Below, in pieces: positions 28,860 to 61,801 of a stretch of 64,000 bases of DNA. The translations under genes were made by a program, and so were the position numbers. The notes under the pieces were generated by a model that saw only the letters and a program-made list of their open reading frames with translations, was not told the DNA's origin and made no database searches. The stretch covers positions 32,352,733 to 32,416,732 of the forward strand of contig NC_089850.1 in the NCBI RefSeq assembly GCF_036373705.1. The letters are read 5' to 3'. This DNA comes from Amia ocellicauda. Lineage: Eukaryota > Chordata > Actinopteri > Amiiformes > Amiidae. Within the stretch, counting starts at the first letter, position 1; each line of letters begins with the position of its first letter.

Positions 28860-28953
28860 ATGCAATTGCGACAGATATCCTTTGTTTTGATCTTCTTGCA
28901 TTGTATGGAGTACATTGACAGCCAGCACGCCTCCAGAAGCAGGCAAAATAGAC
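28860..28953 (+). CDS. rspo3: rspo3 exon 1: signal peptide
   Basis: ATG at 28,860 opens a typical secretory leader, with the hydrophobic core FVLIFLHC near residues 8-15, then a short basic segment (ASRSRQNR). The donor GTAAGT follows at 28,954. The exon ends one base into a codon (phase 1). Start choice: this is the first ATG leading into a signal peptide, and the exon layout matches vertebrate R-spondins. Confidence 0.88.
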
Positions 28954-33800: not shown

Positions 33801-36800
33801 AGATTCACTTAAGTCATAATGATTCAGATGAGTTGAAAATGCAGGCCAAGTTTTAGTAGTGTGAAGATGATAATCTGAAATCTGAAAAATAAAAATATAT
33901 ATTTCTAAAAAATATGCTGTATTCACATAACTCAAAAGTAAATCTGTGTATTAATATCCTAGCATATCTCTCACTGTTGATAGTTGAGGAACTTTACCAT
34001 GTTGATAAATACAGGGGTATTTGGTGTTGCTTTTTCTTGGGGATTGGTAATTGATGTTGTTGGTGTTGTAAAACTACAACTGACCTTTGTCACTTTCTAA
34101 GAGTCTGGTAGTCTGGGAGAATTATGTTAGGGTAAATATAAAATACTAAACATAATAATGAACATAAATAAAAAAGTGAATTGTTTTTGTATTTCAGAGA
34201 ATCCTGGAGTTACCCATGGATGCCAAGGGGGATGTGCAACCTGTTCTGATTACAATGGATGTTTGTCTTGTAAACCCCGGCTGTTTTTCTTCTTGGAGAG
34301 AAATGGGATGAGGCAGACTGGAGTGTGCCTACCCTCCTGCCCAGCTGGTTACTATGGCACCAGATCTCCAGAAATTAACAAATGCACAAGTAAGTTATTC
34401 TGAATGTCATTTAAGTGGATACATCATCATTGGATGCATATCAAGACTTAAAAAACAATACAAACAAACTGGAGAATTAAACTGAAGCACAGACTCCAAA
34501 CTAAAGCAAATAAAATGTTGGCAGGGAGATCAGTATCTCTGCATGATATAAATACTGTGACAGTGTGTGGGGTTGGACAGTGTCTGGGTCTATGTCAATC
34601 AGGTGCTTCCCCTGTAGGGAGTTGTCCCCTGAGGTTTATGGGGGATGTAGTGCCATTTAAGCAGGTGTTTTCCTGCCCTGCGCAGCACTGTGTGACTTTA
34701 CATACTTTTTTTTTTAACCACTTTGGTGATTAGGGCACATTTTGCATTGCTTTTCAATTTGGGAGACAAAGCTAAGTAAACATGTCGCACAGGTGTTTAC
34801 TTGGATGAACAAGCAATTTTAAGTAAAATAATATTACTGTATTATTATTAAAAGCCTGTTGAGTATAATACAAATTCTGCTTTCTTGCCTTAAAATCACA
34901 CCTTAAAAAACACCTTACCTTTAGTGTGAGGATCCCTTGATTTCCTTGTAAATACTTATTTGTGTTTGGTTGTACAATTAATTACATTTTACAATATTTT
35001 CTTAAAACGATTTCTGGTTTTATAATGATCAGTTGACTATGGCAGTAAGTTACACAGTGACCAGGAACTCAGGTTCTGTGTGAATCCTGTATCGTGTGAA
35101 ATGAAAAATGTGCTTTACTTTACAATAAACATCAGCGTGTGGCTGAGATTTTTCTTCAGACACTGTTGTTGTTTCTGTATGTGGATGTCAGGGTTCAGTC
35201 AAAAATTCCCTTAAAATTATCTTGATTAATATTATAGATGTTGTTTGATGTGGAAATAAATGATTTGAAAATAAAATGGATAAAAATACTCTAAGACTGA
35301 GCTAATGAAAAGGCAACGAGTCTAATCCACAAAACTATATACATCTTACACAAATTGCATGCCTAACTTCTTTCATAAGTGGTTTTTGATTACGCTGTAG
35401 CTGGAGGAGCATAATTGGTGGGGCTGTAGGCAATAGAAATAGAAATACCATTTGTATATGGTAAGGCTAATCATGAAAGTCTGTCAACATTATAAAACTT
35501 TTGTAAGCATGGTCTCAATAGACTATAATCAAATATAATCATTACAATCACTTACCTGTATAAACAATAGTTTCCACTTTCCACTTCCCAAAATGCGTGA
35601 CCTCATGTGTATTGATGTTGGTCACTTTTCAGGTCCCTGAAAGGGAAATATGATTTTGAAAGAGTTAATAAACATGTGCATGTCTGTATTTGTGTGGATA
35701 TGGAAGTATGCAAATGTATCAACTTGAATTTCTCCTCTGTCTTCCAGAGTGCAAATCAGACTGTGATGCCTGCTTCAACAAGAACTTCTGTACCAAATGT
35801 AGAGCTGGCTTTTATATACATAGGGGAAGGTGTCTAGAGAGTTGTCCAGATGGGCTGGGGCCCAATGACCAACTAATGGAGTGCACCACTATTGGTAAGT
35901 GTTTTGAACCGCAAATAAGACTTAGCTCACTGGAGGTGAGGTGATGTATGGACTGTAATACTGCAACAAATACAACAGACAGAGCTTGCTGGGATGACAT
36001 GATTCTCCCTCACTAATAATAATACGCCATGAAAACAGTGCCATTCATGTCCATGCTCAAACTTTTAAAAAGTGTATAAGCCTACAGCAGTCACAGTTAG
36101 AGACAGTACCACCCACTTTGTTTTTTTATTTTCATAAGTTCTCCAATTGTATTACTAAAGGAGAGGGGGGCTCTGAATCATACCAATTATATGCTGCAGA
36201 CAAAGAACAGGAGATATGTTTTAGTGAAGTGCGAAGGTCCACCCTGTAAACTTTGAAGTCCTCCACATGACACATAGCATATCTAAAAGTCACGCAAAAC
36301 AGAGCTTCACAAAGTTACCCAAGAACAAGTAAACACAGTTCTGTCTTTGCTGGATTTGTCAACTTTATAATGAAGATTCAAAGAGCCTGTCCTGACTATA
36401 TTAAAGTTTGCGGTTAGTATTCCTATTTATCTCCCTAAAAGCATTTTGGGGAGACAGAATTTAGGTTTACCATCTGACCAAGCACATTGTCTGCTTAGGT
36501 CATGTTGGCACACTGGGTTTAGAGAGAGAACAGTTTGCTGTGCTGTTAAGACCACTTCCTTCAGATTGTTTAAGAGGTTTGCTGTCTGGATATTTAATAC
36601 TGTTAATCTAATTTAAAGTAGATATTTGAGGTGACTTTTTTTCCATTAGCTAATCTGTTATGGCTCTATCTTGACTCTACCTGAAAAGATATTATTTGAT
36701 AATATTTATCTTATCTGTATGTTATTCCCTGTCTTCCAGAGTGCAAAGCTGATTGTGAGATCTGCTCCAACAAAAATGTATGTACCAGATGTAAAGCTGG

Positions 36801-36920
36801 TCTTTATTTACATCGAGGAAGGTGTCACCAAGATTGTCCAGATGAGTTTGAACCAAACGATCAGTTAATGGAGTGTACCACTCAAGGTAAATATGCAACT
36901 GTATTGTAAGGCTAACGTGG

Positions 36921-36963
<43 letters not shown>

Positions 36964-39900
36964 CAGGATAGATCAAAATTTACCCATGTTTTCCTCCTGG
37001 ACAAATTACCGTGCAGTACATTTCCTACGGCCATGCTTGACAACCAATAAATGTCTCCATTTTCCATTTCTTATCATCATAATACAGGATGTAAAAAATG
37101 AGTCTTAATCTAGAAGTTGAGGAATAGTTAATAACAATGATCCATTACCTAGACAGGTGTCATGAGTTCTGAGAACCTCATATACATTTGTTCTGTGTGT
37201 TAAATCTATAAGAAGAAATAAATACATTTCTCTGTGAGCCACTGCCTACAATTAGCCTTCAGAACAATTTGCTAAATGTCAAACAGAAAGCAATTTCAGA
37301 CAGGACACTCCCATAAATGCTTAAGAGACCAAGTAGAAGTTTTACAATAAATATGGCTTCAACAGCTGCTTAAAGAACAAAGCTGTAAATTTTGTTTTTC
37401 ATAGTTAACATCCTGACAACTTTTAACACACAGTTAAAGGTTACAGACTCTCAATCTGTTTTTAAGATGTCTCACACTGTTGCTGGTATGGAATGGGTGG
37501 GGGGTTGCTGTAGTATGGCCTTTGACCTATTGATACATTTTTAAATACAAGTGTAGAAGGGGACAATGCCCCCTTACACACAATACAGTGCCTGACAGGA
37601 GACATCAAAGAGAATAGTTTACTGTGTAAAAATAAAAGATGTCAGGATGTTAATGGGAAAAAAATACAAATATGCTACTTAAACAGCTGTAGTGACACAT
37701 GGAAAACTATTTCACAAAACCACTTAAAAGCCTAGTGAATATTTTCACACAACAGCTTACAGGTGTTTCGACCTCTTGCGTCATTATTCTGTTTTGGTTG
37801 TTGTGATCTCGTGTTTTATCGCAGACATGAGCAATAGCTGCAGTAGCTGTATATGTATAGTAGATGGACTCAAAGATTATAATAAGTACTTGTGCTGAAC
37901 TGAAATAGTTTCTTGCAAGCTTTAAAATGTCTGTTTATTGTAATATATTTGTAACCAGTTTTGACCAAAATGTTAAATAGTTTTAGAATGGTGGAAAATA
38001 CAATCAATGTAACATCAAACATTGTTTTTATTAAACAATATTGCCTTTGTTATCTATTAAAAAACTGTTGGAGAGGATTTTTTGGTAACACTTTACAATA
38101 ATGGGCATTAATTCCTCATGAATTCAGAATTCAGTGTGTGAAGACATGATATACACTCACCTAAAGGATTATTAGGAACACCTGTTCAATTTCTCATTAA
38201 TGCAATTATCTAACCAACCAATCACATGGCAGTTGCTTCAATGCATTTAGGGGTGTGGTCCTGGTCAAGACAATCTCCTGAACTCCAAACTGATTGTCTG
38301 AATGGGAAAGAAAGGTGATTTAAGCAATTTTGAGCGTGGCATGGTTGTTGGTGCCAGACGGGCCGCTCTGAGTATTTCACAATCTGCTCAGTTACTGGGA
38401 TTTTCACGCACAACCATTTCTAGGGTTTACAAAGAATGGTGTGAAAAGGGAAAAACATCCAGTATGCGGCAGTCCTGTGGGCGAAAATGCCTTGTTGATG
38501 CTAGAGGTCAGAGGAGAATGGGCCGACTGATTCAAGCTGATAGAAGAGCAACTTTGACTGAAATAACCACTCGTTACAACCGAGGTATGCAGCAAAGCAT
38601 TTGTGAAGCCACAACACGTACAACCTTGAGGCGGATGGGCTACAACAGCAGAAGACCCAACAGGGTACCACTCATCTCCACTACAAATAGGAAAAAGAGG
38701 CTACAATTTGCACAAGCTCACCAAAATTGGACAGTTGAAGACTGGAAAAATGTTGCCTGGTCTGATGAGTCTCGATTTCTGTTGAGACATTCAGATGGTA
38801 GAGTCAGAATTTGGCGTAAACAGAATGAGAACATGGATCCATCATGCCTTGTTACCACTGTGCAGGCTGGTGGTGGTGGTGTAATGGTGTGGGAGATGTT
38901 TTCTTGGCACACTTTAGGCCCCTTAGTGCCAATTGGGCATCGTTTAAATGCCACGGCCTACCTGAGCATTGTTTCTGACCATGTCCATCCCTTTATGACC
39001 ACCATGTACCCATCCTCTGATGGCTACTTCCAGCAGGATAATGCACCATGTCACAAAGGTCGAATCATTTCAAATTGGTTTCTTGAACATGACAATGAGT
39101 TCACTGTACTAAACTGGCCCCCACAGTCACCAGATCTCAACCCAATAGAGCATCTTTGGGATGTGGTGGAACAGGAGCTTCGTGCCCTGGATGTGCATCC
39201 CACAAATCTCCATCAACTGCAAGATGCTATCCTATCAATATGGGCCAACATTTCTAAAGAATGCTTTCAGCACCTTGTTGAATCAATGCCACGTAGAATT
39301 AAGGCAGTTCTGAAGGCGAAAGGGGGTCAAACACAGTATTAGTATGGTGTTCCTAATAATCCTTTAGGTGAGTGTATATATATATGATCTACTTCATTTA
39401 TTAAAAATGAATTCCATAAGAATAAGAGCCATTAAATCATTACAAATTCACTTGCTTGAATTACAAATGAATTTCATCTGAGTTCACAAAAATTACATCA
39501 TGTATTCATATGTTTTTCCTGTGTTGTACTATCAGAATTCATGAGGAATTAATGCCCATTATTGTAAAGTGTTACCGATTTTTTTCTGTTAGTTTTATTT
39601 TAAATTATGCAAGTAAGTTACAGCTTGAATGTCTATTTGGTACTAAATGTAAGCTCATGAACCCTTTCCTTGGCCTCCCCTCAGTGCACTGTGAAATGAG
39701 CGAGTGGAGCGCTTGGAGTACATGTTCTCGGAAAGGAAAGACTTGTGGCTTCAAAAGAGGAGAAGAAAGCAGAAGTCGAGTGATAGTCCAACACCCGTCC
39801 CCTCATGGAGACCCCTGCCCTGCTCTTTCTGAAAAAAGAAAGTGTGTTGTGAAAAGAAAAAAATGTCGAGAAGGTAAATTAAGATTTATTTCTCTTTTAA

Positions 39901-48680: not shown

Positions 48681-48913
48681 GTAAGTTATGCATTTGTTTA
48701 TTGTTCATGTTCTGGTCAAATGTGTCCAGTACACTTAAAAGCCTTTACACTCAGTTACCAAAAAAAAAAAACAAGAAATTCATAAATGTGTTATAGAGCC
48801 TCGTACACATTAAAATTCTGTTTTATGCCGAGTCATGGCAGCTGTTTTTAATATTTGAAATACAGTTAGTATTTTAGTGTTACATTCTCCTGTTCATGTT
48901 GTGTCCCTGCAGG

Positions 48914-50011
48914 ATGGCTAGCTGCGGAGAGGTTGACCACACACTGAACATGCTTCCCTCTAATAGGAAGGGGAATGAGCCCTGTTCAAGTACATCCCCT
49001 GCCCTTTCAGTCCCCGAATGTGCCATATGCTTACAAACCTGCGTTCATCCCGTCAGACTCCCTTGCAGGCACATCTTTTGCTACCTTTGTGTAAAAGGAG
49101 CATCATGGCAAAGCAAGCGCTGTGCTCTGTGCCGGCAAGAGATCCCTGAAGACTTTCTGGAGAAGCCCACCCTGCTGTCTCCCGAGGATCTCAAGGCCGC
49201 AGGCAGAGGAAACGGGGAGTACGCCTGGTACTATGAGGGTAGGAACGGCTGGTGGCAGTACGACGAGCGCACCAGCAGGGAGTTAGAAGACGCTTTCTCC
49301 AAGGGCAAAAAGACTACAGAGATGCTCATAGCCGGGTTTTTGTACGTGGCAGACTTGGAGAACATGGTTCAGTACAGAAGGAATGAACACGGTCGGCGCA
49401 GAAAAATGAAAAGGGACATTGTAGATATTCCCAAGAAAGGTGTAGCCGGCCTTCGATTGGACACTGACTCCAGTGCTGTAGCTGTGGCCCGTGAAAATTC
49501 AGCGGACGGGGCCGATACCGCTGTAGTTCAGGGGGCTGCCGCTGCGTCCACACGTGCTGCTGCTGCTGTGAGGCCCCCTACGTCTCTAGGAGGCCAGCCC
49601 ACGAGCCCTTCATCCCCATCCCCTGATGCCAGCAGTTCCCTAGAGGACTCCTTTGCCCAACTCCAGATTAACAACCAAAGTGGGGTGGACAGAGGACGCA
49701 ATGGAGAGGGGGAGGAGGTGGAGGAGGATGCAGTCCTGTCCCGTGGGTCCTCTGCTCACAACACCTCCGTGGATGAGTCAGAATCTGAGAGCAGCAGTGA
49801 GGAGGAAGAGGAGGAAGCTGAGGACGATGTAAGCGAAGTAACTGGTGAGCAGCCACAGCACGTCTTGACTACCAGGCAAAGACTGCATCAGCACGACAGG
49901 TTTAGGGAGAACCAGGCAGACAGGCCTGCTCCAGGAGGAGAACCAGGCAACAACAGCAACGGCGTGAGATCAAGGAGACCTGATGGACAGTGTACAGTGA
50001 CTGAAGTTTAA
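48914..50011 (+). CDS. rnf146: E3 ubiquitin ligase RNF146 (Iduna), 365 aa
   Basis: Ubiquitin ligase that recognises poly-ADP-ribosylated proteins and, with tankyrase, destroys axin, so it promotes Wnt signalling. The C3HC4 RING has C36, C39, C51, H53, C56, C59, C70 and C73. The WWE domain (about residues 91-170) has Y107, W114, Y144, Q153, R163 and K175, the iso-ADP-ribose-binding residues known from mammals. An acidic, Ser-rich tail ends in [13 protein letters not shown]. The length is close to human RNF146 (359). The start chosen is the [12 protein letters not shown] at 48,914. An ATG 18 nt upstream is in frame but lies inside the splice acceptor (CCCTGCAG|G). The coding region is one exon, as in mammals, and lies just downstream of rspo3 on the same strand. 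Confidence 0.96.
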
Positions 50012-53761: not shown

Positions 53762-54167
53762 TCATTTGTGTTTCTGTCGCTGAGCCAAAGCCTCAAGGTT
53801 GGCAGGCCCCCCCCAGACACTTCCAAAAACGTCCTTTTCCATTCTCAAGGCCTCAATAAGGGGTAGCTCTTGTCCAGACAGCACTACTTTTTTCGCAGCT
53901 CTAATCACTGCCGCTGGTCCCTTTACAAAACTACTTAACCAGTTCTCAGTTTCCTCCAGAGCTCTGCCATCTTCAGCAGGTGCCAGGAATCCATCAGCCA
54001 GTCCCGCGTGCACTGCGTAGTCCGGGTCCACTTTGCACGCAGAACTCAGCATCTTCAGTGCGTTCTGCCTCCCGACAATCTGGACCAGCCTCGCCGCTCC
54101 CCCCCAGCCAGGAACCAGACCCATGTGCTTGTGAACAAACCGGATCTGGCTGCCTGAGGTCATCAGC
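53762..54167 (-). CDS. echdc1: echdc1 last coding exon
   Basis: Acceptor TTTCCTTTGCAG precedes the exon and TGA ends it. It encodes residues 169-303, including FVHKHMGLVPGWGGAARLV and the C-terminal helices ending in QRQKHK. Confidence 0.93.
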
Positions 54168-57100
54168 CTGCAAAGGAAAACACTGATGCATAAACACAGA
54201 TGACAAACATATTCCAAAACTTCCATTTCTAGAAACTATTATTAACACAGCCTTTATAATTACTTGCAAACTTTGCCTATCAACGATATATTGGATTCAT
54301 CCTAGAGTGTTAAGTTTCTGGAAATGATACTGAAACAGAAATGCAACTAAAAATGGAAGAATCATAACACAGTATGAAATTGTATGAGAATTAACTTTTT
54401 ATAGAGAAATTGCATGGAGGGTTATGTTTTGGTAATTTACAGCATCACTTTTTTCACAATACCATACCATTTCAGTAACTGTTCTTTCTTTCTTTTATGT
54501 TTAAGATCATTATCATATTGAAAATTGTTTTAATTGTATAATGTGTCCCTTCAAACTATAGCTATATATCTATTTGTTGGTGTACTATATTTTTTAAAGG
54601 CACAAATATTTCCATCATTACGGTAAGCTTATCCACAGCCAGCCGTCTTTAAATAGAAGAATAAAGTGTGTGTGTGTTGGGGGGACTGATAAATCTACAT
54701 TTATTTCAATTACATTTTTAATCCCAGTGCTCGCTCTTTGGTACTTCAATTTGTGCTGCTGTTTTGTTTAACTCCCACATATTAGTATTAAGTAAGCATT
54801 TTCCGACTGGATGGTTTTCTTTTAGTCTTCGTCAGCATCTCACAGGTCACAATTTATACCAGTTAATTATAAACAAAGTCTGGTCCAAAATGTCCATGTT
54901 TCTTTTCATGGGAGTTTCTTTTAGACTTTTAAAGTGCACATTTTAGTCATGTGCAAAGTACCTTGTTATCTGGATGATGCATTTTTATTGAGGCACCCAT
55001 AGCATAACAATTCCCTTTGAGAACTATAACGGTAACTATGTGCATTAATATTTGCTCTGGATAGAGTAAGTCTAGAATATTTTGTATGGCTGTCAGCTCT
55101 AAATGCCCTTGGCTGGATGGCACACTAAACCTTCGGAATGCATTTTACATTTACTTACAATGCAAAACACAAGATAAGGAAAAACTGATTGATATCGTCA
55201 TTATATTCAACGTATTATATTCAGTTTTTTCTTGAGATTGAAGAACACCATTAACGAGAAATAATCAATGCACAGGCACTGTAAAACACAAACTGGTTGC
55301 TTAAAATCATGAGAAATCATGTGACGAATGCACTCAACATTATTTTGAACCCAATCATTCTGTTCTTTCAGTTGTGTAACTCCTCTATATAGTGCCTTTA
55401 CATTAGCCAATTAACCCTTGGCGTTGTTCTCCTAATAAGGAGCTAACAGCCGGTAAGTATTAACATGAAAAATCTACTCTTTAAATCTGCTCTTATATAA
55501 AGATTACAATTTGTCTGATCTGAAGTGAATGCTGATTTACCAGTCATTCATTTCAGAAGTGCAGGGATCTAAACCGCTTGATGGGTTCAGTAACAACACA
55601 GACAGGCTGGTTACTCAGTAATTGCATTTGTGCTACTGATAAGAAATAAAAAATACCTTGTTAATATATGGTATTAAGATATGAAATACTAAATGGCCCC
55701 TCTTACATTGAGAGAGTGGTTATGAAGGATTATTTATACCAAATGAGGAAATGAACAAGCAATGTTTGGCCATTTGTTTTGCACACATGTCGCGAGTATG
55801 TGCCATGCTGCTGACAAGCTCTATGTGTTTAACCACTGCTTGAAATTTCAGGCAGTGTCCAGTTCATGCTGCTAAAGGGGAGATGAGTGGCTCCCCAAGA
55901 ATGAGCTGGAATACAATCCACTTTTCACCAAGGACAGCTGTGTGCTAATGCCACAACTCTTCACAATCCACACATCACAGGAGGGACAGCTTCTCTTTTG
56001 GTTTTGCTATTTGATTTGGCCAGAGGGTGGCATTGTACAAAGAAATAGCTTGTGTAAAAGTTACAGCTATTCCCAATTCACTGGACTTTAGTCAGTACTC
56101 CCCATTTCAGTGGATAGACACATGTCTTAGCAACCTCTGGCAAATAGAAAGATAACATTTGGAATGCACAATTGGCAGGGTGGGTCCAGCTTTGATATAA
56201 ATTAGGCCCTTGTTTGTATATTCTTCCATTTTGCCACAATACAATGCATGTACTATAGAGGCAGCAAAAATATATTCATGCTCAGTGAGATGACAGCACA
56301 AGCTTTAGTATAAAGGTTTTTACCTGAAATCGCAGGCTGTAGTGAGTTCTGCTCCACCCCCTAATGCCTTCCCCTGCACTAAAGCCACACTGATCAGAGG
56401 CAGCCTGCACTGAGAGAAAGGTTTTTATTTTTAAGTTTTGCTTCGTCAAACATCTGTGAACATCTGAAAAATAAAAACCTAACTAGGAGCTCTGATATTA
56501 ACCCAATTTCTACCACCCAAATATTCGCGAAATTTTCCAGATTTGGGTAAAACCTGAAAACTCACCAAATCGTAGTAACCTGTCACCGAATACATGCAGG
56601 CACACTTCAAATGCACCGCTAACTGAATTAGGTAAGCAGATACAAATGGGTCTTCTAGTTTATACTTACTACAAATATTTATTTTTTCAGTATTAGGGCA
56701 TTGCAGCTTTAAAGTATTTTGTAATGTTTTTAAGATGAAATTAGCTGCATGCCACTTAATCGTCTCCCGTCATTTAAAAGTGTTGTTGTTGTCTTGCCCA
56801 TGTATTCTACGTGCAGTTATACCTTCAGATGTTAAGAACAAAATAAAATAAAGGAATGAAAAATAGCTCCCGATATGTTTTTTTGGTTAATAGTTGAGAT
56901 AGTAATCATACAAAGGAGAACTGTCAGTACTTTAAGGGCAACATTTTGGCTATAATCTGGACTCGTGGGCATATTACCTCTGCAGTCTTGTCAGTGTGTT
57001 TTGCATGAACATACACATCTCCATTCCCTCCTAAAATGTAAAAAAACAAAAACAATTTAAAGTTGTTTTTTCCTCAGTTTGAAACATCTGCTATTTTTGG

Positions 57101-57862
57101 CTGTCATGAACATTAAGGCTGAAATGTATTAATAAGGCTGAGGTATAACTCAAATATAGTATAGTATACCTGCGGGTTCGATATCGCTCTGACTGCATTT
57201 AAATCTGACCCCGAGCAGAAAGTGTTATCAGCTCCCTGTACAATAAGACCTTTCCCTTCAGTCCATTCTTCAAGTTGGTCCACTCTGTCCTCCAGCTCAA
57301 TCATCATTGTACCTGGCAAGTAAAGATCACAGTTATGAGAAAACAGATCTGCACTGGAATATCCATAAGGCAATTAGGCTGCCCAGTAAAGACATTAAGA
57401 AACTGAGCTGTACCAAAAATCTTGCAACTCTTTACATAATACGGGATGTGCACGTGAACGTATTTTTCAAAAACACACAACCTCGGAACTTTCGTTTGAG
57501 TTTTCAAAGTCTATTTTGATGATGATGATGTGCATTTTGCACGAGCAAGATTACAAATCAAGAAGGACATGCATGTCATTCTTAATGTACTTTATATTTA
57601 AGACAGTGGTTCGTGTGTATTTATCTCCAGTACCTGTGAATGCATTCATGCGAGCTGGGTTATTTACAGTGAGAACGGCGACACCGCTGTCCTGCTTGAT
57701 GAGGTCAATCGATCCACCTGGGAACGCCTGCAGCTTCTGTCTGATCTCCTCTTTGTGAAAACCACTGGCACTGCTGTAGATAGCCTTGCTCCTTCGCCGA
57801 AGCACAATGAATGCGTTCCGTGTGTTCTGTTGGAAGCCAGTTCTTAAATAATGCAGTGCCAT
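53762..57862 (-). CDS. echdc1: Ethylmalonyl-CoA decarboxylase ECHDC1 (303 aa)
   Basis: Crotonase-fold enzyme that decarboxylates ethylmalonyl-CoA, and to a lesser degree methylmalonyl-CoA, formed by mistake by acetyl-CoA carboxylase: a metabolite-repair role. Coding exons on the minus strand: 57,862-57,634, 57,312-57,170, 57,030-56,978, 56,404-56,324 and 54,167-53,762, all with GT/AG borders and compatible phases, totalling 912 nt including TGA. Crotonase signatures are GADNTFCSGSDLNAV (residues 103-117, first oxyanion loop) and GKALGGGAELTTACDFR (153-169, second loop). The C terminus carries the family's VWGGPANLEA. The length matches the roughly 300 residues of mammalian ECHDC1. The N-terminal 35 residues are basic and free of acidic residues, like a mitochondrial leader, although mammalian ECHDC1 is reported as cytosolic. 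Confidence 0.94.
54168..56323 (-). other. echdc1: echdc1 intron before the last exon
   Basis: A 2.2-kb intron with no recognised gene. A diverged single end of the inverted-repeat family lies at 56,171-56,209. Confidence 0.6.
56171..56209 (+). repeat. Diverged end of the 9-kb inverted-repeat family
   Basis: Reads ATTGGCAGGGTGGGTCCAGC and then TTTGATATAAATTAGGCCC. It matches the copy at 17,535 with several substitutions. Confidence 0.35.
56324..56404 (-). CDS. echdc1: echdc1 coding exon 4
   Basis: An 81-nt exon carrying the second oxyanion loop (ALGGGAELTTACDF). Acceptor CTCTCAGTGCAG, donor GTAAAA. Confidence 0.92.
56978..57030 (-). CDS. echdc1: echdc1 coding exon 3
   Basis: A 53-nt exon encoding EGMEMCMFMQNTLTRLQ. 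Acceptor TTTTTTACATTTTAG, donor GTAATA. Too short for standard frame scans, but phase and residues match the family. Confidence 0.88.
57170..57312 (-). CDS. echdc1: echdc1 coding exon 2
   Basis: A 143-nt exon encoding the first oxyanion loop (NTFCSGSDLNAV). Acceptor TTTACTTGCCAG, donor GTATAC. Confidence 0.93.
57634..57862 (-). CDS. echdc1: echdc1 first coding exon
   Basis: The ATG lies one base after the acceptor TTGTTCTAG. The exon encodes 76 codons, through FPGGSIDLIKQDSG and NNPARMNAFTG, then donor GTACTG. The N terminus (MALHYLRTGFQQNTRNAF) is basic and amphipathic. Confidence 0.92.
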
Positions 57863-58866
57863 TCTAGAACAATAAAAGGAGGAGAAAGATACAATGTGAA
57901 GTTTAAAAAATATCTATATTTTAAATATACAATAACAAAAGCTATCAGATTCACCCTGTTATATCACTATATCATGTTCTACAGCACAGATTTTACAAAA
58001 TGACAATCTAAGTTGGGAGTCTGAATATTATTGGTTGTTTTGTTTCAGATAATATATGGACAAGTCTGCAAATAGACAGGCTAGTGTGTCCATGTGCGTG
58101 TATGCAGGAGTGTATATGTATTGTATTTTCTTTACACCCTCAGAGTTCAGTATCAATCAACTTCACATGAAAGACATTCCCGGGTTAGAGATTGTGTGAA
58201 ATATCACACCGCTTGTCAGCAGCAGCCTGGGCTTCATTATTTACATAAAATGTGTACACCATGGGTTGTCATCAAGAAGCTCAGCCAGCCTCTGCCACGT
58301 CTTTCTTCACACTCCTGTACGTAAAGGCTGAAATGGCATCATATAAAGCATACTTTCTAACATCTGGCTTAACGGAAGAGCTTTGCAAAGGGTTTCCATT
58401 TCGTATTAAATATCAACTAGGCGGCAAGTGTGGGGTTAAGGGTCACAGAGCTGAAGGGTCAGGCGCGCACAGCCCCGCCGGTAAGCGCACCATTTTCAAT
58501 ACATCCGGACTTTTACTGAAAATACATGGAGGAAAAAGACTCAGCCTTCTTCAGTGTAGAGAAGCCAATACTAACGAAGCAAGAGAAAATACAAATACAT
58601 AATTAGGCTGTGACTTTTGGTAGACTTATCTCCTCTTTTCAAAACTGTTGGTGTGAGTATCGATAGATGTTACAAATGTGTTAAAATAGGTCATTTAGAT
58701 TTGCAAATGCAGATTAGCCTTGTAAAGTAATTGACAACATCTTAAAGAGTATCGATAATAATATATATATTATTGCGCGGCTAAAGTGGTTATTTGATTC
58801 AAATATAATATTCTACCTTCCATGCTTGTCATATTGATAATATTAAAACAATAACCTTTTACTAAC

Positions 58867-60603: not shown

Positions 60604-61801
60604 CACTCACCTAAAGGATTATTAGGAACACCATACTAATACTGTGTTTGACTCCCTTTCGCCTTCAGAACTGCCTTAATTCTACATGGCATTGATTCAA
60701 CAAGGTGCTGAAAGCATTCTTTAGAAATGTTGGCCCATATTGATAGGATAGCATCTTGCAGTTGATGGAGATTTGTGGGATGCACATCCAGGGCACGAAG
60801 CTCCCGTTCCACCACATCCCAAAGATGCTCTATTGGGTTGAAATCTGGTGACTGTGGGGGCCAGTTTAGTACAGTGAACTCATTGTCATGTTCTAGAAAC
60901 CAATTTGAAATGATTCGACCTTTGTGACATGGTGCATTATCCTGCTGGAAGTAGCCATCAGAGGATGGGTACATGGTGGTCATAAAGGGATGGACATGGT
61001 CAGAAACAATGCTCAGGTAGGCCGTGGCATTTAAACGATGCCCAATTGGCACTAAGGGGCCTAAAGTGTGCCAAGAAAACATCCTCCACACCATTACACC
61101 ACCACCACCAGCCTGCACAGTGGTAACAAGGCATGATGGATCCATGTTCTCATTCTGTTTACGCCAAATTCTGACTCTACCATCTGAATGTCTCAACAGA
61201 AATCGAGACTCATCAGACCAGGCAACAATTTTGGTGAGCTTGTGCAAATTGTAGCCTCTTTTTCCTATTTGTAGTGGAGATGAGTGGTACCCGGTGGGGT
61301 CTTCTGCTGTTGTAGACCATCCGCCTCAAGGTTGTACGTGTTGTGGCTTCACAAATGCTTTGCTGCATACCTCGGTTGTAACGAGTGGTTATTTCAGTCA
61401 AAGTTGCTCTTCAATCAGCTTGAATCAGTCGGCCCATTCTCCTCTGACCTCTAGCATCAACAAGGCATTTTCGCCCACAGGACTGCCGCATACTGGATGT
61501 TTTTCCCTTTTCACACCATTCTTTGTAAACCCTAGAAATGGTTGTGCGTGAAAATCCCAGTAACTGAGCAGATTGTGAAATACTCAGACCAGCCCGTCTG
61601 GCACCAACAACCATGCCACGCTCAAAATTGCTTAAATCACCTTTCTTTCCCATTCAGACATTCAGTTTGGAGTTCAGGAGATTGTCTTGACCAGGACCAC
61701 ACCCCTAAATGCATTGAAGCAACTGCCATGTGATTGGTTGGTTAGATAATTGCATTAATGAGAAATTGAACAGGTGTTCCTAATAATCCTTTAGGTGAGT
61801 G
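60604..61801 (-). mobile_element. DD36E Tc1/mariner element, copy C (defective)
   Basis: A 1,198-bp element with TA on both sides and the same 29-bp terminal repeats. It is 23 bp shorter than copy B because of one internal deletion. It is embedded in a long TA microsatellite. Confidence 0.95.
60636..61653 (-). pseudogene. Broken DD36E transposase, copy C
   Basis: Homologous to the 346-residue frames of copies A and B, but codon 81 (AGA in copy A) is TGA, ending the N-terminal piece at residue 80. A 23-bp deletion near 61,228 then shifts the frame just before the first catalytic Asp. The downstream part still encodes WSDES, QQDNA and NPIEH. Not functional. Confidence 0.93.

Follow-up and report, generated by a model that had tools for sequence, protein, structure and literature searches.

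Third furin repeat of fish R-spondin 3

Among the R-spondins, the first furin-like repeat (FU1) binds ZNRF3/RNF43 and the second (FU2) binds LGRs (PMC3905715), the latter contact being made through a "phenylalanine clamp" (PMC3861454) whose two positions are numbered F106 and F110 in human RSPO3 and RSPO1 alike (PMC5800842). The R-spondin 3 (Rspo3) of fishes has a further repeat, FU3, which was described in medaka in 2012 (PMC3542121), in zebrafish, medaka, fugu, stickleback and gar in 2014 (PMC4053527), in tongue sole in 2018 (PMC6073468) and in a survey in 2025, which reports F106/F110 as near-universal, FU3 not being treated in this respect in its open text (PMC12111769). The repeat has thus been in print since 2012, and the literature (here and below, open-licence full texts without their figures) yielded no account of it in molecular terms. 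Here we describe the rspo3 gene of a 64,000-nt stretch of the Amia ocellicauda genome (henceforth the window), in which two successive FU2-like exons, 3a and 3b, encode FU2 and FU3. Exon 3b is the already known FU3 of fish Rspo3, in one further species; what appears to be new, judging from the aligned repeats, is the loss of the clamp from FU3 across the sampled lineages beside an intact clamp in FU2, which we did not find stated in the literature so delimited.

Loss of the phenylalanine clamp in FU3

Exon 3b is bounded by canonical splice sites in phase 1-1 (acceptor ...gtcttccag/AGTG, donor AAG/gtaaat, the slash marking the junction), and the coordinates first proposed for it (Table 1) proved exact in both splice sites and frame. 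The first residue of the repeat is K when joined to exon 2. Between exons 3a and 3b, 109 of 147 bases are identical, as are 33 of 49 residues; 3b has lost none of the eight cysteines. As the initial annotation of the window had it, the residues corresponding to F106 and F110 of RSPO1 are Phe in 3a, whereas 3b has other residues at both sites: the clamp codons TTC/TTC of 3a (35774-35776 and 35786-35788; motif CFNKNFC) are replaced by TCC (Ser, 36766-36768) and GTA (Val, 36778-36780), giving the motif CSNKNVC. The pairwise ratio of nonsynonymous to synonymous change (dN/dS) between the two exons, ~0.14 (NG86: 0.195/1.39) to 0.22 (maximum likelihood: 0.194/0.90), speaks against a decaying pseudo-exon, though the value averages both copies.

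Three protein searches against a database clustered at 90% identity (best 120 of 200, 228 and 259 matches listed) recovered 166 distinct R-spondin proteins, in which FU2-like repeats were counted with a profile at a threshold of 30 bits. Two such repeats were found in 88 proteins, which carry FU2 (3a) and FU3 (3b) in tandem, one in 76, and none above 30 bits in two (P0156, labelled low quality, and P0161, partial). The 76 single-repeat rows comprise five ray-finned models with 3a only, the Sinocyclocheilus anshuiensis model P0162 and 70 other vertebrates, the latter taking in sturgeons and bichir as well as five short-contig entries taken as tetrapods; the truncated P0155_3a was kept in the count. 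Phe occupies the F106 site in one of the 88 FU3 repeats, that of the gar (CFNKNTC), and the F110 site in none, Thr being found there in 69. The FU2 repeats of the same tandem proteins show F/F in 86 of 88, the two exceptions being salmonids with F/L, and the single-repeat proteins in 75 of 76, with P0162 as the exception. The initial annotation had asked whether Ser and Val are conserved at these sites across fishes: the loss of Phe is general (87/88 and 88/88) and exceeds what chance would give, whereas the letters of the window are partly its own, with Ser at the first site in 0/88 and Val at the second in 6/88. A private mutation, which the same annotation had tied to Phe in orthologous 3b exons, was rejected since the FU3 repeats of relatives are likewise without the clamp; the gar Phe at the F106 site answers to that description in part, but Phe is absent from the F110 site in all 88 FU3 repeats.

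The departure of FU3 from FU2 was further ranked over the 45 aligned columns, with a single-repeat set of 75 from which P0162 had been removed. The two clamp columns take ranks 1 and 2, and hold them after thinning to 90% and to 80% identity. Seventeen columns are conserved in both FU2 sets: thirteen of these are little changed in FU3 (eight Cys, two Gly, Tyr, Pro and Glu), while the remaining four shift, namely both Phe, the Asn between them and one Leu. As the window FU3 retains that Asn and Leu, the clamp alone is gone from it among the four. No FU3 row among the 89, window included, departs from Cys at any of the eight Cys columns, which together with the little-changed columns bears out the earlier claim that 3b keeps its cysteines and fold. 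Thus, as far as aligned repeats can tell, clamp loss is a general property of FU3, apparently targeted while the fold was kept. The gar protein modeled by AlphaFold from a 60-sequence alignment agrees with this, in that FU3 forms a repeated hairpin ladder with block means of 93-98 in predicted local confidence (pLDDT); at an overall predicted template-modeling score (pTM) of 0.50, the relative placement of domains is unreliable. A structure search gave 34 matches at E <= 0.001, all to FU1-FU2 structures of RSPO1/2; the matches support the fold and, with their high root-mean-square deviations (about 9-10), no claim on geometry.

In two salmonid proteins (P0004 and P0005) the second clamp Phe of FU2 is replaced by Leu, and a ninth cysteine is present; with these changes, one of the salmonid rspo3 copies may have weak LGR binding.

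Origin and distribution of FU3

Exon 3b of the window is an additional FU2-like exon lying between the FU2 and TSP1 exons, and groups with the FU3 of gar and teleosts as their ortholog. In a tree of 40 chosen repeats over 45 columns, drawn from 14 of the 88 tandem proteins, 10 of the 76 single-repeat proteins and the window, many forks are unresolved; all 15 FU3 rows tested, window included, nonetheless form one clade (support 99/98), in which gar and window branch off basally and the 13 teleost rows form a nested group (99/96). Gar is the row nearest to the window for FU2 and for FU3 alike. A single FU2 is found in sturgeons (P0050, P0135), bichir (P0059), coelacanth (P0055), lungfish (P0068) and cartilaginous fishes, and the 2025 survey gives reedfish RSPO3 two FU domains (PMC12111769). 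The simplest history suggested by these sequences is that FU3 arose once, by duplication of the FU2 exon; because sturgeons are without FU3 and the reedfish has two FU domains, the gain is placed on the neopterygian stem and not at the base of all ray-finned fishes. Since the gar still has Phe at the first site, the repeats further suggest an order of loss in which Phe disappeared from the F110 site before it did from the F106 site, the latter loss having occurred independently in the window lineage and in teleosts.

Two rspo3 genes each were seen in Megalops (P0002/P0031) and Gouania (P0033/P0111), with FU3 present and its clamp lost in both copies.

Splicing and possible roles of FU3

We consider it probable that FU3 is a constitutive, LGR-silent third repeat of single neopterygian origin, placed between the LGR-binding and heparan-binding parts of the protein. 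In the corresponding scenario, the FU2 exon would have been duplicated in tandem in the stem lineage shared by gars, bowfins and teleosts, the copy normally being spliced in with 3a. FU2 would still bind LGR4/5/6, while FU3 would have kept the disulphide ladder and lost the clamp, at the F110 site already in the common ancestor, and turned acidic, most strongly in teleosts. Having lost the clamp, FU3 very probably does not bind LGRs; as a rigid extension it could then set the LGR-binding repeat apart from the TSP1/basic part that binds heparan. If the copy still had a functional clamp, LGR might be seated one repeat too far from the ZNRF3-bound FU1, so that a copy without it would be favored. 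Since FU2 keeps its clamp, the tandem fish RSPO3 should stay LGR-competent and hence should not be LGR-independent.

The initial annotation had instead envisaged a splice-level choice between 3a and 3b, with a 3b-only isoform signaling independently of LGRs through ZNRF3/RNF43 and heparan sulphate. Both exons are in phase 1 at each end and the frame holds in any combination (predicted lengths 318 aa with 3a+3b, 269 aa with either one and 220 aa with neither), so that a 3b-only mRNA would indeed be in frame. Clamp-mutated RSPO3 is known to signal without LGRs: the F106E/F110E form still does so in LGR-null cells (PMC5800842), and in normal cells the same change in a heparan-binding fusion without the TSP1 and basic parts cost 80% of efficacy (PMC7239654). 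The annotation's premise that changing the clamp abolishes LGR binding need not entail that RSPO3 becomes inactive: F106E/F110E abolishes the signaling of RSPO1, whereas in normal cells it only about halves the efficacy of RSPO3 (PMC5800842). As for the splicing itself, the donors score alike (5.08 for 3a and 4.72 for 3b by a rough matrix), the pyrimidine tracts are similar (16/20 and 15/20) and the intron between the exons is 845 bp; given these features, nothing seen forces mutual exclusion. Seven clusters whose contigs measure 1,346-2,549 bases (source 'lgn', which by our own reading denotes assembled reads) run through both FU2 and FU3 and point to spliced RNA, since an unspliced stretch so short would hardly be expected to contain both repeats; FU3 is likewise found alongside FU2 in the cDNAs published for medaka, zebrafish and tongue sole (PMC3542121, PMC4053527, PMC6073468). 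Both clamp phenylalanines are gone from the repeat as such an isoform would have it, but no clean protein with 3b and without 3a was found among the 166 retrieved, although the searches included window and teleost-type 3b-only queries; this absence is not proof, as 90% clustering and listing of the best 120 matches could hide minor isoforms. The sole model with FU3 and without FU2, P0162 from S. anshuiensis, was set aside as faulty, its FU1 being truncated and followed by intron-like sequence. The proposed choice of a 3b-only form is thereby left very improbable: the tandem form prevails among the fish proteins retrieved, with F/F in its FU2. In this particular species we infer tandem splicing from the canonical sites, the in-frame 3a-3b junction and the tandem arrangement in 88 relatives. 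To judge from the forms with exon skipping, which are 3a-only, any splice choice would rather seem to be FU3 in or out, the LGR-binding repeat staying.

FU3 might also have gained a new partner (a surface protein, or a second ZNRF3/RNF43 or glypican/syndecan contact), for which the clamp surface was re-used. Fish R-spondin 3 would then be a three-way adaptor (ZNRF3/RNF43 - LGR - unknown X) with no mammalian counterpart and with its former LGR face rebuilt. FU3 has conserved positions of its own (Glu 37 in 87/89 rows, Pro 38 in 84/89, Leu 24 in 82/89 and the F110-site Thr), its mean net charge is -4.4 as against +0.5 for FU2, neither rspo3 copy of Megalops or of Gouania has lost it, and its deletion from tongue-sole Rspo3 altered the repression of boz (PMC6073468). 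Its mean pairwise identity, 0.64 over 51 tandem proteins, is close to that of TSP1 (0.67), and such conservation together with the acidity is compatible with a separate partner for FU3. Yet the window FU3 has a charge of just -2 and is without the teleost-typical Leu 24 and Thr, the conservation may serve folding alone, and the structure search returned no partner, only the FU1-FU2 of RSPO1/2. We know of no FU3 partner, and regard both the partner and the three-way adaptor as unlikely. Less probable again is that exon 3b is a drifting, redundant repeat under relaxed constraint, tolerated within the rod. FU3 does vary more than FU2 (mean pairwise identity 0.63 vs 0.71 over 3,828 pairs) and the window FU3 sits on a long branch (0.30 vs 0.049 for gar); however, the cysteine columns are invariant, conservation resembles that of TSP1 and change is greatest precisely at the clamp. 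The Wnt/beta-catenin inhibition reported for the FU3-bearing Rspo3 of zebrafish (PMC4053527) and tongue sole (PMC6073468) might be ascribed to FU3 acting as an LGR-dead decoy. Human RSPO3, which has no FU3, acted similarly in zebrafish embryos (PMC4053527), and we therefore dropped FU3 as the cause of this inhibition, the decoy being scarcely credible.

Several observations weigh against FU3 as a constitutive, LGR-silent extension. After thinning to 70% identity the F106 column falls to rank 3, and retention of one clamp Phe by the gar makes LGR silence of the earliest FU3 less sure. Because the search queries contained 3b, 88/166 should not be read as an unbiased frequency, and five ray-finned models have 3a and no FU3 (P0131, labelled 'isoform X2' by NCBI, P0141, P0143, P0160 and P0165), some of them probably gene-model gaps. 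The survey of 430 proteomes gives the RSPO3 of several teleosts only two FU domains (PMC12111769), and FU3 may at times be skipped or lost. Tongue-sole mRNA deleted for FU3 showed only part of the wild-type effect when tested in zebrafish embryos: boz was no longer significantly lowered, while sp5l was neither significantly lowered nor significantly different from wild type (PMC6073468). This suggests that FU3 is more than an inert spacer; FU3 matters in this assay, though a setting of the sign of signaling by it is not demonstrated.

The rspo3 locus and other elements of the window

The window contains a complete rspo3 coding region of six exons on the + strand, the first ending in phase 1 (donor GAC/gtaagt). 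FU repeats, TSP1 and a basic tail follow one another in a single reading frame, as in R-spondin 3, and the spliced protein matches Pfam Furin-like_2 at 2.9e-54 in addition to TSP1_spondin. The closest protein among the matches listed is the gar R-spondin 3, with 83% identity over the furin and TSP1 part. The neighborhood is likewise that of R-spondin 3: downstream lie an RNF146 frame and, on the opposite strand, an enoyl-CoA hydratase exon that we take to be ECHDC1, and in the human gene order RNF146 and ECHDC1 adjoin RSPO3. RNF146 is another regulator of the Wnt pathway, acting on Axin.

Table 1. Coordinates of rspo3 exons and other features in the window
Feature	Positions	Strand	Basis or remark
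rspo3 coding exon 1, signal peptide region	28860..28953	+	tblastn vs gar R-spondin 3 (P0001), 29/32 identical; frame check
rspo3 exon 2, FU1	34198..34389	+	tblastn 94% vs gar; splice frame; Pfam Furin-like_2 on spliced protein
rspo3 exon 3a, FU2, clamp Phe present	35748..35894 (147 bp)	+	splice frame; repeat comparison
rspo3 exon 3b, FU3	36740..36886 (147 bp)	+	splice frame; clades with gar and 13 teleost FU3 rows, 99/98
rspo3 exon 4, thrombospondin type 1 repeat	39685..39873	+	tblastn 72% vs gar; Pfam TSP1_spondin 7.1e-13 on spliced protein
rspo3 exon 5, basic C-terminal region and stop codon	44250..44437	+	tblastn 80% vs gar; open 318-aa frame with 3a+3b
RNF146 open reading frame	48878..50011	+	RING and WWE domains, one open frame; matches solved RNF146 at 5.3e-100
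Enoyl-CoA hydratase exon, within	53762..54235	-	Pfam ECH_1 match
Frame resembling an ECHDC1 exon	57551..57913	-	no Pfam ECH_1 match
Sleeping-Beauty-type transposase frame, 330 aa	12221..13213	+	Pfam HTH_SB 7.5e-28
Tc1-like transposase frame, uninterrupted, 346 aa	13637..14677	-	
Tc1-like transposase frame, uninterrupted, 346 aa	38302..39342	+	sole copy domain-scanned
Tc1-like transposase frame, 229-aa piece	60636..61325	-	
(AT)n tract	~36924..36962		starts ~38 bases past exon 3b end

The three Tc1-like frames are near-identical by eye, and the copy on the + strand sits in the rspo3 intron between exons 3b and 4.

Comparison with known R-spondins

With the clamp seen to be lost, what had been a loosely defined 'extra furin domain' raises a concrete question, namely whether FU3 is a spacer or meets another partner. 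It also bears on model organisms, as the Rspo3 of zebrafish and medaka differs in build from the mammalian protein that it is used to model. Like the published Rspo3 of ray-finned fishes, the window gene has the same extra exon after FU2, six exons and the tandem FU1-FU2-FU3-TSP1; unlike the published accounts of FU3 (PMC3542121, PMC4053527, PMC6073468, PMC12111769), as far as their open texts go, the present analysis covers its clamp residues. The R-spondins with FU1-FU2-TSP1 of tetrapods, sharks, coelacanth, sturgeon and bichir share the gene, the fold and the FU2 clamp, and have one furin repeat fewer. The nearest parallel to FU3 is found in engineered proteins, i.e. RSPO3 F106E/F110E (PMC5800842, PMC7239654) and RSPO2 F105R/F109A (PMC7435267), in which the same two positions of a furin repeat are changed; however, whereas those mutants alter the sole FU2, the rspo3 of the window keeps its FU2 clamp and carries the clampless repeat in addition.
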